Source: Isoetes taiwanensis
Taxonomy: Eukaryota; Streptophyta; Lycopodiopsida; Isoetales; Isoetaceae
Direction: 5' to 3'
Assembly: GCA_021234155.1 (NCBI GenBank)
Contig: JAJEKV010000510.1
Coordinates: 62,001 to 126,000 of the forward strand
DNA length: 64,000 nt
Each line of letters starts with the position of its first letter. The first letter of the stretch is position 1. Below, one piece after another: positions 3,244-57,484 of the stretch. The notes under the pieces were generated by a model. It saw only the letters and a program-made list of their open reading frames with translations. It had not been told where the DNA came from and ran no database searches. Both the position numbers and the translations under genes were made by a program.

Positions 3244-3539
3244 CGGGGGTGCACCTCTATATATGGACAGATGGCATCTGCGTTCGAGGGGTCATAGAAA
3301 AACCCCTGTATACGGCTTTTTGGAGTAGAAAAACCCATACCATACGGTTTTTCGAACTAATATACAATATAGACCCTATCCGTAGATTTACGATTGATTG
3401 TGCCAAATTATATAATCCCTTTCCGACTTTGTACCATATGCTTGCATGGACCATATGCTTGCACGGACCACCATGGACCTTGATCACGTTGAGTTGGTCA
3501 CGTTGCAGGGTAAACATGGCAGATTGATCACGGGGGTGA

Positions 3540-51349: not shown

Positions 51350-53640
51350 TTGCTCATTAAATCATTATTCTACTCGTCCAAAGTGGCATTGTCTCTCTAG
51401 AAAGAAAACAAAGAAAAAGAAAAAAGAAGAGAGAGAAAATCCACTCTTGAGGTGCCACTTCAATAAGAAATCAAAAACTAGTTTGAACTTGTCAAATCTC
51501 AAGTTCCATCACCATTCACATGTTATGGTTGCTCCCTTCAATCAATGCTGTGCGGAGTATTTGCTATATCATTCTTTCATGATATATATGAAACTAAACC
51601 AGACTCAGCTTAGATAAACCAACAGGTAGTCCTCCTCTTTGTTTTTCATAAATCTTTAATAAAACATTGCAGACCATCACATGATAAATCCTACTTTCGC
51701 ACACCCTTTGGCATCACTTTTTTTCTTTGGACCTTGTGTATGCTTAAGCTAGGGAGGTCCACAACTTAGAAAGCTTTGTAATAATCTGAGCAAGACGAAT
51801 ATATGAAGTCTGTCATATCTTGTCATAATTGATTATATGGTAGACCTAAGCATGGCCATTCTGAATCATATTGTATTTCAGTTCAATGTAGAGCAAACAG
51901 GTTTCTTAAAAAGATTGCAAGCTATTCCTGCAGACAAATAAGACACCAAAGGATTTGGCCATGGCATTGAGAAGAAATTTTAGCTAATAGGGCATAAATT
52001 GGTTGTTCACAATGTACATTTTTGGAGGTTTATAAGTCGCGAGGATATTGATTTTTTAGATGTCTTCAAAATGCCACTTTTGTTTGAGTTCTTGATGAAG
52101 CCTGACTAGAAATTTCATCAATGATTCTTCAACTTGCCTCCATTACAAGCTTCTCTTACTTTAGCTGATTTTATGTTCAAGTACCAAGAGCTCTCCATCA
52201 TAGCTGGTCTGTAATGTGCCATCATAGCTAAGTGCTTTAGTGATCTAGAGCCAAATTCATCCACTGCAATGTACTACTCCGTGGACGTTAAAATATACTT
52301 CCTTCCTTCCTTCCTAAAAGTAGAAAGCCAAAGTGCCCTCCAAGTTTCAAAAACCCCTTTTGCAAGTTTCCAAGTTTCCAAGTGCCCTTTTGCAACCCCC
52401 GCCTCAAGCCTATCCTACCCCAAACACTTCAAAACTAAAGAGGAAAGATAAATTCAAACATTTGACTAAACATTTTCCACCATTGCACCATGTATATTTG
52501 GCACAAGAACTGAAAGAGAACCATTTAGCACTATTGTTCACCCCAACCTTCACCCCAACCCCGCGTTTCTGCTAGTTTTTTTTTTTTTTTAAATCTTATA
52601 TATAGTTAAATCACCCATGCACAACTTATATTAGATGCCACTTCCTCGCTTCTATCTATAGCAGAGAAAAATTTGTCGAAAAAGAGCATTTAAAAAAAAT
52701 GTAGATAATTCCAATAATTAATTTTTTATTCAATAATATTAATAGTTCTAAATTTAAGGATTTTAAAAGCATCACGAAAAGTGTATATACGTGCTCTCTA
52801 CAGTTTTTGGAACTTGGCAATTTGCACAAGCTAAAATGATGGTTTACAATTTTCTTTGTAGTAAGCATGTCTATTCATAACTTCGCGACAAGTCGAGGAG
52901 GTACAAGTAGTTGGGATGACTAAAACGCAATTAAGATCCTCGATTACGAAAAATAAATCGACTTTGCAACTCTTTTAGTGAGGAGATGAGCTCTTTAATA
53001 TCTACGACTCTGAATGAGCGGTGATGCGAGAACAGAATTCCTGCAGGGGAAGACTACACTTGTCCGTAATTGAACGTTTTCCCCAGAAACAAGAATAGAT
53101 TCCTCCTCGAGCATCTGTAAATTAGAAGCCATGTTGACAAATTGAATAGGAAATTCCTAGATTTTTTATAAAAGACAATCCTTACTCTCTCCGAATCTGG
53201 CGTAAAATGGCCACATCCTCTTCAAAACACCCCTTTGAGTTTCGCAGATGCGGGAAAATAGCGGTGATAAATCATGTCCTCCAATTGAAAATCCAGGGGA
53301 CTTGAAAGACACGAAGTGCACTATGTGCCTTAGTATATCCAATCTCAAAAATAGCTTAAAGTCACCAAAATTGCATTACCTTCAGGAGAAGTTTAATGTT
53401 CCTTTGTAGAGTAACAAAGCAATCCAGGATTTTTGTTCTAGATGCTCAATTGTTGCAAGAGAAGTGAGAAAAAGGTGGCAAAGATTTTGAGAATACGAGT
53501 TAAAGACCACTCGGTATTTGATGAAACAAACATATAACTTAAAGTTAATAAAATGACAGAGTAATAAAAATGGCATAGCTTGACATAATCTTGCAACAAT
53601 CAAATTTGGTATTTTGTAACATATGATTTATTAAGGTTAA
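51350..53640. other. Intergenic, no gene seen
   Basis: No gene with a recognisable domain. Around 52340-52400 the words CAAGTTTCCAAG and GCCCTTTTGCAA are repeated in a short local array. Long A/T tracts are common. Confidence 0.5.
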
Positions 53641-53911
53641 TAGGTGGTATTCAGATACAAACCATTATGAATACGAGAGAAAGGCAGGGGGTTGCGAGCG
53701 CGACAGATCCATTTTTTTTTTCCCTAGGTTTGGGAGGCGGCGTCCTTCCCAAGCGCTCCAAAGACTTGGCGCTTCAATCGGGAGGATGGGCGGGAAAGGG
53801 ATCGGCATGTTGGCTTATCTTCTGCGAGGGCTTCAGTTTCGATTTCTGTCTTCCTGCGCAGTGAGTTAGCGCCTGGTACGTGTGTTTTACCTCTTTTCGG
53901 TGTTGCTTGAG

Positions 53912-54914
53912 ATGTCTTTAAGAAGGAGGCCGAGGAGGGCAAGGGGCATGCAAAATCTTCCATCCAGTTCGATGGCCTCTATGGCACGCTCATCTCGCAC
54001 TGATGCTGATTCTATCCCTTTGCGGATACTAGCCCGGTTTGGGATTCAATTGATGTTTACGTTACTTTAGGCCTTTACGGACAAGATGTTCCCAAATCTT
54101 TCTATGATGCCCTTGTCGGATTTTGTGACTCCAAATGTCTAGCAGGGGCGTTAGCCTGGAAAGGGGCTCCTCTACTGATCACTTACATGTTGAGGGTGTT
54201 TTGAGAGGTCGATTGGGAAGTCCCTAAGGCCTTGAATGATGCTATCAAAAAGACTTCAACTGGTCTCCCAAGCTTCTTGGCGTGGTGTTGGTCTCGCAAA
54301 GCTTTGAAAAATAATAGAACGCATTGTTTTGAGGGAATGGTAGGATATTGTATGAAAGATTTTTGGAAAAGTTCACTATAGTTGTCATATGCACAATATC
54401 TACGAATCTATGATTGAAAAGGTAAGGATCTTTATTTAAGGTGGGGTGGGGTGATACTAAAGGGTTGTGTGTCTTGGATAATAGGAATCTTTTAAATAAG
54501 GCATGCCATTACGTGATGTATCATGGGGTCGAGACTATCCCCAAGTCGACCTTTACTTTGTGCAGGATGTTGAGGTCTGGAAAATACACATTAAGTAGTT
54601 CTTGGATTATTCCTCATAATTCTGCCCATGTGAATGAACACAGTCTTGGGCATGCATGGAGTGTTGCTTAATCTGGCGGCTGCGCCTCCGACATAAGAAC
54701 TATTATCTTTGGTTATCCTTCAGGGTTTGTTCCTGTTGAGAGGAATGGGCCTGGTAGAAGGCGCTATTGGGATGATGCCATTCCAGCAGACGAACAGGAC
54801 TCAAACTTTGAGGATCTGCATGAGAGAACCTTTAGCTCTGAGGCGGATATCCCTGATGTTGGTGCAGACTATATCCCTGTGTACACAGGGGACCACACCA
54901 TGGCAGTGGGTTGA
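53912..54914 (+). pseudogene. HUH (Rep-like) endonuclease gene, decayed; Replitron-type or viral Rep relic
   Basis: An Arg-rich start (MSLRRRPRRARG) is followed by DVYVTLGLYGQDVPKSF. Bases 54177-54203 read DHLHVEGVL, an H-x-H metal-binding motif of HUH endonucleases with the usual hydrophobic context. Bases 54343-54360 read GYCMKD, which fits the YxxK motif that carries the nicking Tyr and the Lys. A later block reads TLCRMLRSGKYTLSSSWIIP. HUH enzymes nick and join single-stranded DNA during rolling-circle replication or transposition. Single-Tyr YxxK enzymes are known from CRESS viruses and from Replitron transposons. No helicase was seen. The reading frame is broken about half a dozen times, so this is a fossil. 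The assignment rests on two motifs in the right order about 160 bases apart. Confidence 0.6.
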
Positions 54915-55024
54915 TTTCTTTCATGTGGTTCCTTCTTGTACAGTGTATAGTCTTTTGTATTTATCTGCTGTTGTATTTCTCTGGTTTATGGTTGGTACAG
55001 ATTTGTGCAGGGTCTTCTTGAGAA

Positions 55025-55437
55025 ATGGATGGAAATGGCGACACCATGGATGAGACCCCCACCGTGGTTGTTAGTATTGGTCCTGATATCATCAGTTCTA
55101 CCATTGATGATTCTCATCCAAACCCGCATGCTTATCCTCCTGAAAGTGAGGAAGTCTTTACTGCTGAGGAATTTGTGACTAGCATTGTGCAGGTTGGTAC
55201 GCGAGGCGCCTGGGGATTGCAGCCTCATTGAGGATCCCGAGAAGGCGTATAGGAAGCTTCTATGTTGCTATAAGTGCGCCTTTATGGCACGTGCAATGGG
55301 ACATCTTGGTGTGCGGAATCCGGAGTCGCATGTGTTGCGCTCACACATGAGCTTGGCAAGGGGCTCTCGACCACGGGGAGATACGCCCACTGATCGGCTC
55401 ATCGGGCATGCTAGCTCTGGGCCGACCGGGAATTGAG
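55025..55437 (+). pseudogene. Unrecognised frame downstream of the HUH relic
   Basis: An acidic start (MDGNGDTMDETPTVVVSIG) leads into EDPEKAYRKLLCCYKCAFMA and a basic Arg-rich end (SRPRGDTPTDRLIGHAS), with one break between. It keeps a coding look and lies between the HUH gene and the hairpins, so it may be a second product or a later exon of the same element. No domain was recognised. Confidence 0.35.
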
Positions 55438-55622
55438 AAGCTTTTGTGTTCAACTTGCATCGGTTATCTGGTTATGTGTGATGAACTTATATGTTGTTGT
55501 GATCTCGAACTATTTCTGCCATGTAATACGTATCTTTGGTATTTCAATGTAAATATTTGACATTTGTTTGCTTGATAATTGGACACCGTTTCCTGTTTAT
55601 ATTTCGGCGGTGTTTATTTATT

Positions 55623-55673
55623 GGGGCATTGGCCCCTTGCATAAGGGAGCTCCATTAGTTGGAGCTCTCTTAT
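55623..55673. repeat. Two adjacent hairpins downstream of the HUH relic
   Basis: GGGGCATTGGCCCC (55623-55636) folds on itself. It is followed at once by ATAAGGGAGCTCCA, the loop TTAGT and TGGAGCTCTCTTAT (55641-55673), a 14-base stem with one mismatch. Hairpins next to a terminus are typical of elements moved by HUH endonucleases, so this may be the right end or the origin of the element. Confidence 0.75.
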
Positions 55674-55940
55674 GTCGGTGGCTAATGGGTTCATTTGGGG
55701 GTTCGATTCCCAGTGCTCAGGCCTGATATTTGATCTACAGGTATAACAAAGATTCTTTGGAGAATACGCCATGGTTTTATTTATAGTTGCATGTATTTTT
55801 TGTTCAAGTCAAACAAGCCAGGTATGACTTGTAAAGGACTTGAAATGGAGGGCAGGGATGCTCTTAGAGAGCATCTTGACTTTTGGACCATTGTCTTTTT
55901 TTTTAAATGGCTGTCATCTAACGGCCCAAAATCCATAATA

Positions 55941-56016
55941 CAAGGTTCTAAAATTGTAAAAAAATTACGGTCTAACGAGATTGTTAATGGCTATTGGGTT
56001 GTATTGGTATTAGCAC
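55941..56016. repeat. 75-base direct repeat, left copy
   Basis: Starts AAGGTTCTAAAATTG and contains GATTGTTAATGGCTATTGGG. Near-identical sequence lies at 56200-56275, directly after the Helitron 3' end. Confidence 0.9.
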
Positions 56017-56168
56017 CACCACATTAGCAGCAACATTGGAGTCCATCAAGGGTGCCCTCAATCCCCGAATCTATTTAGGAGTTAACTTGGATAAAACCAA
56101 ACTACTTGGATAATCAAACTCGACACATTGCTATGATGCAACCCTAACATCATACACAATTCGATCAA

Positions 56169-56198
56169 GCCCGGCAATGCCGGGCATGCGTTTACTAG
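56169..56198 (+). mobile_element. Helitron 3' terminus
   Basis: GCCCGGCAATGCCGGGC (7-base stem, 3-base loop) is followed 9 bases later by CTAG and then T. This is the textbook end of a Helitron: a GC-rich hairpin shortly before a CTRR terminus, inserted before T. The matching 5' end (TC after A) is not established; TCTATTTAGG near 56067 is one candidate, which would make a very short non-autonomous element. Confidence 0.8.
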
Positions 56199-56199
56199 T

Positions 56200-56275
56200 A
56201 AGGTTCTAAAATTGTAAAAAAATTACGGTCTAACAAGATTGTTAATGGCTATTGGGTTGTATTAGTAGTTTTTTT
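56200..56275. repeat. 75-base direct repeat, right copy
   Basis: This is the second copy of the block at 55941-56016, differing at very few bases. It starts right after the Helitron CTAG/T junction, so the repeat and the Helitron end are probably linked in origin. Confidence 0.9.
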
Positions 56276-56420
56276 TCGTATAATGTTGACGGTGGACGTG
56301 CGCTTTTGGAACTAGGGAGAGAGGAAGCTCAAACCTATGGTTGATTAGGGCGTGGAGGCGGATATGGAATCCGCATATGAAGGAGGCAGCTGTAACAAAG
56401 TTTTTAGACCGCTTCTTCTT

Positions 56421-57037
56421 TGTAACGGGCCCATGGTTGATCGCTCGAGTATTTGATCCTTGAATGTGCCTGCGGGGCGTTCCCGAGACACCGACATAAA
56501 TGGGTAGAAGTGACTATTCATAAACATCTAGACGGTTAGGAACATTACATTTGGTATCAGAGCAGATCTCGAGTTTGAGTCTCCATAGATGTATACTAGA
56601 GCAAGTCTCGAGTTTCTCGTCTCCATGGGTGCATATGCACGTGCAATTTGGTAACCTTGGTAATCATCCGATCAATGGTATAGTAGTCTTGGATTCTCGA
56701 GAACGAGCATAGTCAGGTAATTTGGTAACCTTGGCAATCATCTAGTCAGTGGTATAGTGGTTAAACCATAGTCTTGGATGCTCGAGGTCGAGCATAGTTC
56801 TAGTGAAAGAGATTGTGGTATAGTGGTTAAACCATAGTCTTGGATGCTCGAGTACGAGCATAGTTCTAGTGGAAGATATTGTAACGGACCCATGGTTGAC
56901 CACTTGAGTATTCAATCCTTGAATGTGCCTGTGGGGTGTTCCCGATACACCGGCATAAATGGGTAGAAGCGACTACTCATAAAATGTTTAGGCAGTTTTG
57001 CCCAGTTAATTAAGGGCATGTCAGTTAGAAATGTTAT
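56421..57037 (+). mobile_element. TRIM: miniature LTR retrotransposon
   Basis: LTR 1 (56421-56549, 129 bases) runs from TGTAACGGGCCC to AACATTACA. Two bases later comes TGGTATCAGAGC, the classic primer-binding site for initiator tRNA-Met. A non-coding internal region (56550-56879) ends in a purine-rich tract (AGTGGAAGATAT). LTR 2 starts at 56880 (TGTAACGGACCC) and runs to about 57000-57037, with a length difference near its end. It has no coding capacity, as is usual for TRIMs, which depend on other elements. The LTRs are clearly diverged, so it is not recent. Confidence 0.85.
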
Positions 57038-57344
57038 ATTCTTTGCAAAGGTTCTTTGCAGAGTAGATGCCTTATCTTATTTTACTGAAGATCCAAAGGG
57101 CCAGTTTCGTGATGGACTTAGAAAACAGAGCTTCTTCACAGGGTTGATCCGTGGCCAAAAGATCTTCGGATGGAAGATTATTCCTTCCTATCTTTTTTCT
57201 TATAGTTTCTTAGGTTGCAGCCTTCTTTTTATCACATGTTCTTTGTGTTTCTGTGGTTGAGAAGGAACAAGCGAAAATGTTTTTGGGGCCAGTTTAGAGA
57301 GGCAGTTTTATGCAGCTTATCTTTGTGACGCCTCCTACTCACAT

Positions 57345-57484
57345 ACGAGGCAATCTTCAATGCTCGAGGATGAGCATAGTTCTAGTGGGAGCAATTATAA
57401 CGGGCCCATGGTTGACCACTGGAGTATTTGATCCTTGAATGTGCCTGTGGGATGTTACCGAGACATCGGCATAAATGGGTAGAA
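57345..57484 (+). repeat. Third TRIM LTR with a piece of internal region
   Basis: The end of a TRIM internal region (ATGCTCGAGGATGAGCATAG then AGTGGGAGC) is followed by an LTR start (TATAACGGGCCC) that matches to about 57484 (GGCATAAATGGGTAGAA) and then stops. This implies a tandem or truncated second TRIM sharing LTR 2, in which most of the internal region has been replaced by unrelated sequence (57040-57340). Confidence 0.75.

Follow-up and report, generated by a model that had tools for sequence, protein, structure and literature searches.

Two short motifs in the window, the whole 64,000-nucleotide stretch of Isoetes taiwanensis DNA analysed here, raise the question of whether an HUH endonuclease gene once functioned at this locus and, if so, to what kind of element it belonged. 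A sequence-only reading had described positions 53912-55673 as the relic of a single-tyrosine YxxK HUH endonuclease gene, perhaps from a poorly described family of rolling-circle-type transposons in seed-free plants. The locus is very probably a young Replitron copy with a precise 5′ and a ragged 3′ end, and most of its frame breaks are probably nanopore miscalls. Replitrons are DNA transposons that move by means of a single-tyrosine HUH enzyme; the genome holds at least 41 copies of this one, the window copy among them, with an HUH gene (ORF1) and, in this clade, a second gene (ORF2). The element is longer than the region first described, running from about 53585 to 55944, and has the following features.

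53585-55944, + strand: whole Replitron copy, delimited by aligning it with 20 further copies from this genome
53585-53611, + strand: precise 5′ end (ATAATCTTGC...); in the window and 20 copies the first base is A in 20 of 21 and is followed by TAATCTTG in 21 of 21
53912-54914, + strand: ORF1, the HUH endonuclease gene, broken in the assembly; from tblastn with the ORF1 of copy L012 and from Pfam scores of the window and siblings
54180-54188, + strand: HUH motif (H-L-H); D149, H150, L151 and H152 invariant in 11 aligned same-genome proteins
54346-54360, + strand: catalytic motif Y-C-M-K-D (YxxK); Y205, C206, K208 and D209 invariant in same-genome proteins (n = 11)
55025-55436, + strand: ORF2, 136 residues in intact relatives, broken in the assembly; from tblastn with the ORF2 of L012 (two pieces, E = 4e-20)
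55618-55723, + strand: structured block of two hairpins, a stem resembling a tRNA acceptor stem and a hairpin resembling a tRNA T-arm (GGGTTCGATTCCC, 55699-55711); from covariance model R1, pair counts and fold z = -5.1
55933-55944, + strand: start of the 18-bp tandem unit CCATAATACAAGTTATAT; the 3′ ends of the copies fall in such units, and the window copy has 12 bases of the first

The HUH endonuclease gene

Both motifs lie on the + strand, in the order and exactly at the coordinates first claimed for them. The frame shifts between them, since 54180 is a multiple of three and 54346 leaves a remainder of one. By itself the motif pair is weak evidence that does not beat chance: with both strands counted, and with YxxK taken in any frame of the same strand, the window has 33 cases of H-hydrophobic-H followed 90-270 nt on by YxxK, and its reversed sequence has 13. 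That the gene is real follows instead from homology to an intact protein of the same genome. The ORF1 of L012, which belongs to a sister subfamily and scores 78.5 bits for Replitron_HUH, matched the window in tblastn at 54147-54911 (E = 1.3e-84) and 54025-54450 (E = 6.6e-32), with no further match in the 64-kb window at E ≤ 0.01 and none in the reversed window at E ≤ 1.

The profile search of individual frame segments that had been suggested as a check did return the expected family, though below its threshold. Of nine stop-to-stop + strand pieces scanned against Pfam, 54205-54381 matched Replitron_HUH (E = 0.051, 14.4 bits, cut-off 28.5) and 54426-54671 matched Replitron_C (E = 0.13, 13.1 bits, cut-off 27) as well as Gag_p10 (E = 0.16, 12.3 bits, also under its curated cut-off), while the other seven had no match at E up to 10. 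Adjacent pieces pointing to both domains of one protein are an initial lead. Four sibling copies, chosen among 20 for their long open frames, score 69.4, 69.4, 71.1 and 53.1 bits for Replitron_HUH (PF21859, cut-off 28.5) and six intact relatives 75.4-79.2 bits. Replitron_C (PF21860) was seen in five of ten scanned ORF1 products at 12.6-16.5 bits, every score being below the cut-off of 27; membership is firm at the HUH domain.

The intact relatives bear out a single-tyrosine YxxK enzyme, as H150, H152, Y205 and K208 do not vary among the 11 proteins and the motif YC(M/L)K contains one tyrosine. The absence of a helicase also held: Pfam gave no helicase family above cut-off in six intact ORF1s, the AAA_11 match in L036 reaching 13.2 bits against a cut-off of 27. 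Eight pairs compared between subfamilies show 0.76-0.95 synonymous and 0.16-0.46 nonsynonymous differences per site, and ORF1 is under selection at the protein level with its synonymous sites saturated. Elsewhere, sequence searches of the PDB at E up to 10 gave no match for L012 ORF1 or the A1 profile, two ORF1s had no match in NCBIfam, and L012 ORF1 had a single weak match in PHROGs, to a family without an assigned function (E = 0.0017).

Copies of the element in the same genome

The genome searched comprises 1,658,258,908 bases (1.658 Gb) in 1110 contigs. The exact 5′ 27-mer occurs in it 41 times, the window included, and its reversed control not at all; a DNA search with 53900-55700 gave at least 48 matches, again with the window, 40 of 753 candidates being scored. 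All 20 copies fetched share the 5′ end from its second base on (TAATCTTGCAACAATC) and have unrelated flanks, and over 20 copies the element measures 2339-2507 bp, the units of the 3′ tail not being counted. The 150 candidates scored, from 2165 in the whole genome, all passed the Replitron_HUH cut-off, so that there are at least 150 HUH loci. None was found in 14 control genomes (0/14). The idea of a Replitron-type element in a seed-free plant is therefore upheld, by Replitron_HUH in the siblings and by the homology to L012, and the proposed search for related copies found both the shared 5′ end (41 exact) and, in the 19 other copies folded, the downstream hairpins. The family is not a new or poorly described one, since lycophyte Replitrons are already in print (PMC10741241).

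Three tail-to-tail pairs of window-family copies were seen, at C1041:12896486-12901263, C1018:39970326-39975436 and C1018:40005950-40011120, and the two on C1018 have common flanks and look like one segmental duplication. Directly 3′ of the window copy, 55942-56267 holds a pair of direct repeats of 68 bp, 97% alike and spaced by 258; the sequence they enclose closes with a small GC-rich hairpin and then CTAG at 56195-56198, an arrangement we take to resemble a Helitron 3′ end. Farther on, 56379-57484 contains direct repeats, three of them 131 nt long (66-100% alike) and several others of 30-66 nt, and within it TGGTATCAGAGC at 56552 is presumably similar to the primer-binding site of a plant LTR retrotransposon.

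Frame breaks and the age of the copy

ORF1 is broken in the assembly; to call the gene a relic is probably an overstatement, as the differences cluster in or beside CG and CHG motifs and some siblings keep an open HUH domain. For the window and 19 copies (L049, a split match, was dropped and insertions were uncounted), differences from the commonest base amount to 21.5% at CG/CHG sites, 7.1% within 4 bp of them and 1.1% at the remaining 1097 sites. Inside the motifs transversions (7.4%) are as common as C>T or G>A changes (6.7%), with other transitions at 3.8% and deletions at 3.6%, and deamination alone is therefore rejected. Away from CG/CHG the divergence is 0.2-2.5% per copy. The window copy differs there at 18 of 1097 sites, 10 of them deletions, and is thus young whether its breaks are errors or mutations.

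According to PMC8566536, the probable source assembly combined R9.4.1 nanopore data with Guppy flip-flop, racon and pilon, and nanopore consensus errors at methylated motifs have been documented in bacteria (PMC6591954). Such miscalls would escape correction because short reads polish near-identical repeats poorly. From the distribution of the differences it would seem likely that the frame breaks are mostly miscalls at methylated cytosines. Against this, nine pairs of loci drawn from other Replitron subfamilies have a CG/CHG excess of just 1.3- to 2.8-fold with gaps counted; if only substitutions are taken, L009-L012 reaches about 8-fold and L011-L022 about 1.4-fold. The smaller excess would fit better polishing of diverged copies.

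That modest excess could be cited for a truly dead Replitron relic with real mutations as frame breaks, as could the spread of ORF1 over at least two frames and the tally of the window copy, which differs at 201 of 1286 sites near CG/CHG, the second most among 20 copies (L054 has 235), in addition to the 18 off-motif differences with their 10 deletions. We consider a dead relic unlikely, since an off-motif divergence of 0.2-2.5% is low for an old one and since transversions match C>T and G>A changes, with deletions besides. If miscalling is the main source of the breaks, other transposons that look like relics in early nanopore assemblies of plants may likewise be artefacts at methylated cytosines.

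A second gene and a structured block

An ORF2 of 136 residues lies 3′ of ORF1 in L012, L019 and L037, and is open in L045 of the window family. Over 11 pairs between subfamilies it shows 0.64-0.76 synonymous and 0.23-0.36 nonsynonymous differences per site, with a dN/dS of 0.19 for L019-L037, and its protein sequence is under selection between subfamilies. Three pairs inside the window family give a ratio of 0.51-0.91, which is expected if these differences are errors or neutral. No Pfam family matched the ORF2s of L010 and L019 at E up to 10; that of L012 had no match in PHROGs and nothing credible in NCBIfam (a 13-bit match, cut-off 162.6). L021 and L028 have a similarly placed ORF that does not align to L012 ORF2, and we therefore claim ORF2 just for the clade of the window, L012 and L010. 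A possible intron separating ORF1 from ORF2 was also considered.

The two strong hairpins noted downstream of the gene were recovered at 55623-55636 and 55640-55674 when 55600-55720 was folded as DNA (z = -5.1 against 200 shuffles). Both form in the window and in all 19 further copies that were folded, the longer of them being imperfect in L058. They belong to a block of about 105 nt, 3′ of ORF2, that is common to the window family and two sister subfamilies. Its first hairpin has the form GGGC-loop-GCCC, the long second one is built on GCATA/TATGC, and after them the stem (A/C)TGAGC/GCTCA(T/G) closes on the hairpin TGGGG-TTCRAYT-CCCCA. We take the layout and the T-loop letters of this last stem and hairpin to be those of a tRNA acceptor stem and T-arm.

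The block is conserved in sequence as well as in pairing. Among three representatives 55 of 118 columns are invariant in the block, against 51 of 512 in the preceding stretch, where one representative lacks sequence in some columns, and 13 of 78 in the following one. Pairing was evaluated for 27 pairs in eight sequences, which represent three lineages rather than eight independent samples; one of these sequences also supplied the structure, four inner pairs were excluded for gaps, and the window-family copies L055 and L039, which align poorly, were left out. Pairing holds in 95.4% of cells against 88.0% after shuffling (0/500) and 35-53% when slid, 18 cells are changed on both sides against 7.6 (0/500), and the covariation score is 0.254 against 0.111 (0/500), while the number of pairs with a two-sided change (6 against 4.3, 64/500) and of further pair types (12 against 10.4, 98/500) is not outstanding.

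Covariance model R1, which includes the siblings L041 and L048, scores 53.4 bits in the window (E = 2.5e-10), the sole match there above 15 bits. It reaches at least 40 bits in 11 of 30 other Replitron loci, of which six contributed to the model, two are truncated by the end of the locus and three (L009, L027 and L033) are independent full matches. The block was not found in deeper subfamilies such as L021, L028, L030, L031 and L036, where the DNA examined may end too early. ARAGORN with the bacterial code found no tRNA in 53500-56200, and Rfam at E ≤ 5 gave two matches in five loci, both under their gathering scores and neither on the T-arm. The block may act in RNA processing, in tRNA mimicry or as a DNA stop signal.

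Two further observations concern single copies. The T-arm-like hairpin occurs twice in L009, at 3159 and, about 195 nt farther downstream, at 3354. In L012 the 3′ portion of the element contains, close to its end, a long hairpin (3273-3359) with a sub-threshold Rfam match to the plant miRNA precursor MIR4387, which scores 29 bits where the gathering score is 84.

Ends, target duplications and insertion

Across 32 copies the 5′ end is precise and the 3′ end ragged. The 20 copies behind the 5′-end count were not chosen by that end, and eleven more come from a set chosen by the 5′ 27-mer. Measured by exact matching, the 3′ ends fall 4-47 bases inside the run of 18-bp units; single-base changes in the units shorten this measure in some copies, L041 among them. 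Eleven out of 19 additional 3′ ends were counted, the exclusions being six without an available 5′ flank and two segmental duplicates (C1018c and C1018d). The 5′ end and the 3′ unit share the 5-bp sequence ATAAT, which at this length could be due to chance.

Target duplications reaching the 5′ end were found in three of the 32 copies: L055 (19 bp), L044 (29 bp, with ten extra bases ahead of its 3′ copy) and C512 (29 bp). Two more, C909 and C1030, have duplications of 6-7 bp that abut both sides, and the other 27 have no duplication abutting the 5′ end that is longer than chance would give. Suffix matches of at least 6 bp occur in 9 of 32 true pairs of flanks against 21 of 992 mismatched pairs, where the longest is 7 bp. 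Repeats of 40 bp in L056 and 24 bp in C940 do not reach the 5′ end.

An empty site confirms the duplication in L055 and shows that the element has moved: C1038:10152294-10152493 is 97% identical to the joined flanks and contains the 19-mer just once. L050 has a related empty site, where a related repeat runs on uninterrupted; the 3′ joint of L050 carries about 51 extra bases of filler that match another dispersed repeat and its 5′ joint three extra bases relative to the empty site, so not every 5′ joint is clean. The joined flanks of L053 gave no clean empty site.

The simplest reading is that the 5′ joint is made by the enzyme and the 3′ joint by repair. Extrapolating the catalytic steps from HUH enzymes in general, the HUH tyrosine would cut one strand at the 5′ end (ATAATCTTG...) and stay attached, the cut strand would be displaced by host replication, and the 5′ end would then be joined to the target. 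The 3′ end would have no fixed cut, being freed somewhere in the 18-bp tandem repeat that contains ATAAT and sealed by host repair. Such release and sealing would account for the ragged ends, the filler DNA and the variable length of the duplications. A broader proposal, to which we give somewhat less than even credence, is of a lycophyte Replitron clade that combines ORF2, a tRNA-imitating block and half-precise insertion, in which HUH fixes the 5′ end only, repair seals the 3′ end, and the block has either an RNA role or that of a single-stranded DNA signal that halts the rolling circle.

Other origins

Target duplications of 19-29 bp and a 3′ end that varies within tandem units are LINE-like, and with the sub-threshold Gag_p10 match of one window piece (12.3 bits, E = 0.16) they could speak for a retroelement that carries a captured Replitron gene. 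We regard this as very unlikely: in LINE copies the 3′ end is the exact one and here it is the 5′ end, no reverse transcriptase family was found in the nine + strand window pieces, and the ORF1 protein sequence is under selection. Less probable still is a Helitron or its relic, even though an HUH endonuclease, hairpins in the 3′ part and an adjoining Helitron-like end (56195-56198) would all suit one, since the six intact ORF1s contain no Helitron family or over-cut-off helicase, YC(M/L)K holds one tyrosine, and L055 has its 19-bp duplication with an empty site.

The rolling-circle Rep of a CRESS DNA virus has HUH and YxxK motifs in the identical order, but that the locus is an endogenised one seems scarcely credible. 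A search of IMG/VR with alignment A1 gave 192 pattern matches, none confirmed, the intact proteins have no viral Rep family in Pfam up to E = 10, and the element is present in numerous copies that have their ends in common, with an empty site as well. For want of a confirmed relative in IMG/VR, and given the transposon copy structure, a virus relic was rejected. The same alignment gave 26 pattern matches in GTDB genome contigs, none confirmed.

Relation to known systems

With at least 150 HUH loci, copies of low divergence, an empty site and a conserved structured block, the insertion step at which Replitrons choose and join their ends is testable in this genome. ORF2, the tRNA-like block and half-precise insertion were not reported in the literature searched, the founding Replitron paper lying outside that search, and the ORF2, structured block and ragged 3′ end of the Isoetes Replitrons are worth following.

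Helitrons are defined by a Rep-helicase fusion with two tyrosines. The Isoetes element is like them in its HUH endonuclease and in the hairpins of its 3′ part, but has no helicase, one motif tyrosine instead of two, and target duplications in some copies; Helitrons insert between A and T without duplication, according to the review PMC10741241. With the Reps of CRESS DNA viruses it has in common a single-tyrosine HUH endonuclease, and it differs in having no viral relative confirmed in IMG/VR, no viral Rep family in Pfam and the copy structure of a transposon instead. Replitrons were first reported in 2023 (Craig 2023, via PMC10741241) and, according to that review, have direct terminal repeats of 5-11 bp, target duplications of 2-8 bp and a length of 900 bp to 4 kb. 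The Isoetes element agrees with them in Replitron_HUH, one YxxK tyrosine, no helicase and a lycophyte host, its 2.4 kb fall within this range, and a few of its copies have short target duplications (6-7 bp in two of 32). From Replitrons as PMC10741241 describes them, the Isoetes copies differ in duplications that may also be of 19-29 bp or absent, and the family in its ragged 3′ ends within 18-bp repeats, its ORF2 and its tRNA-like block.
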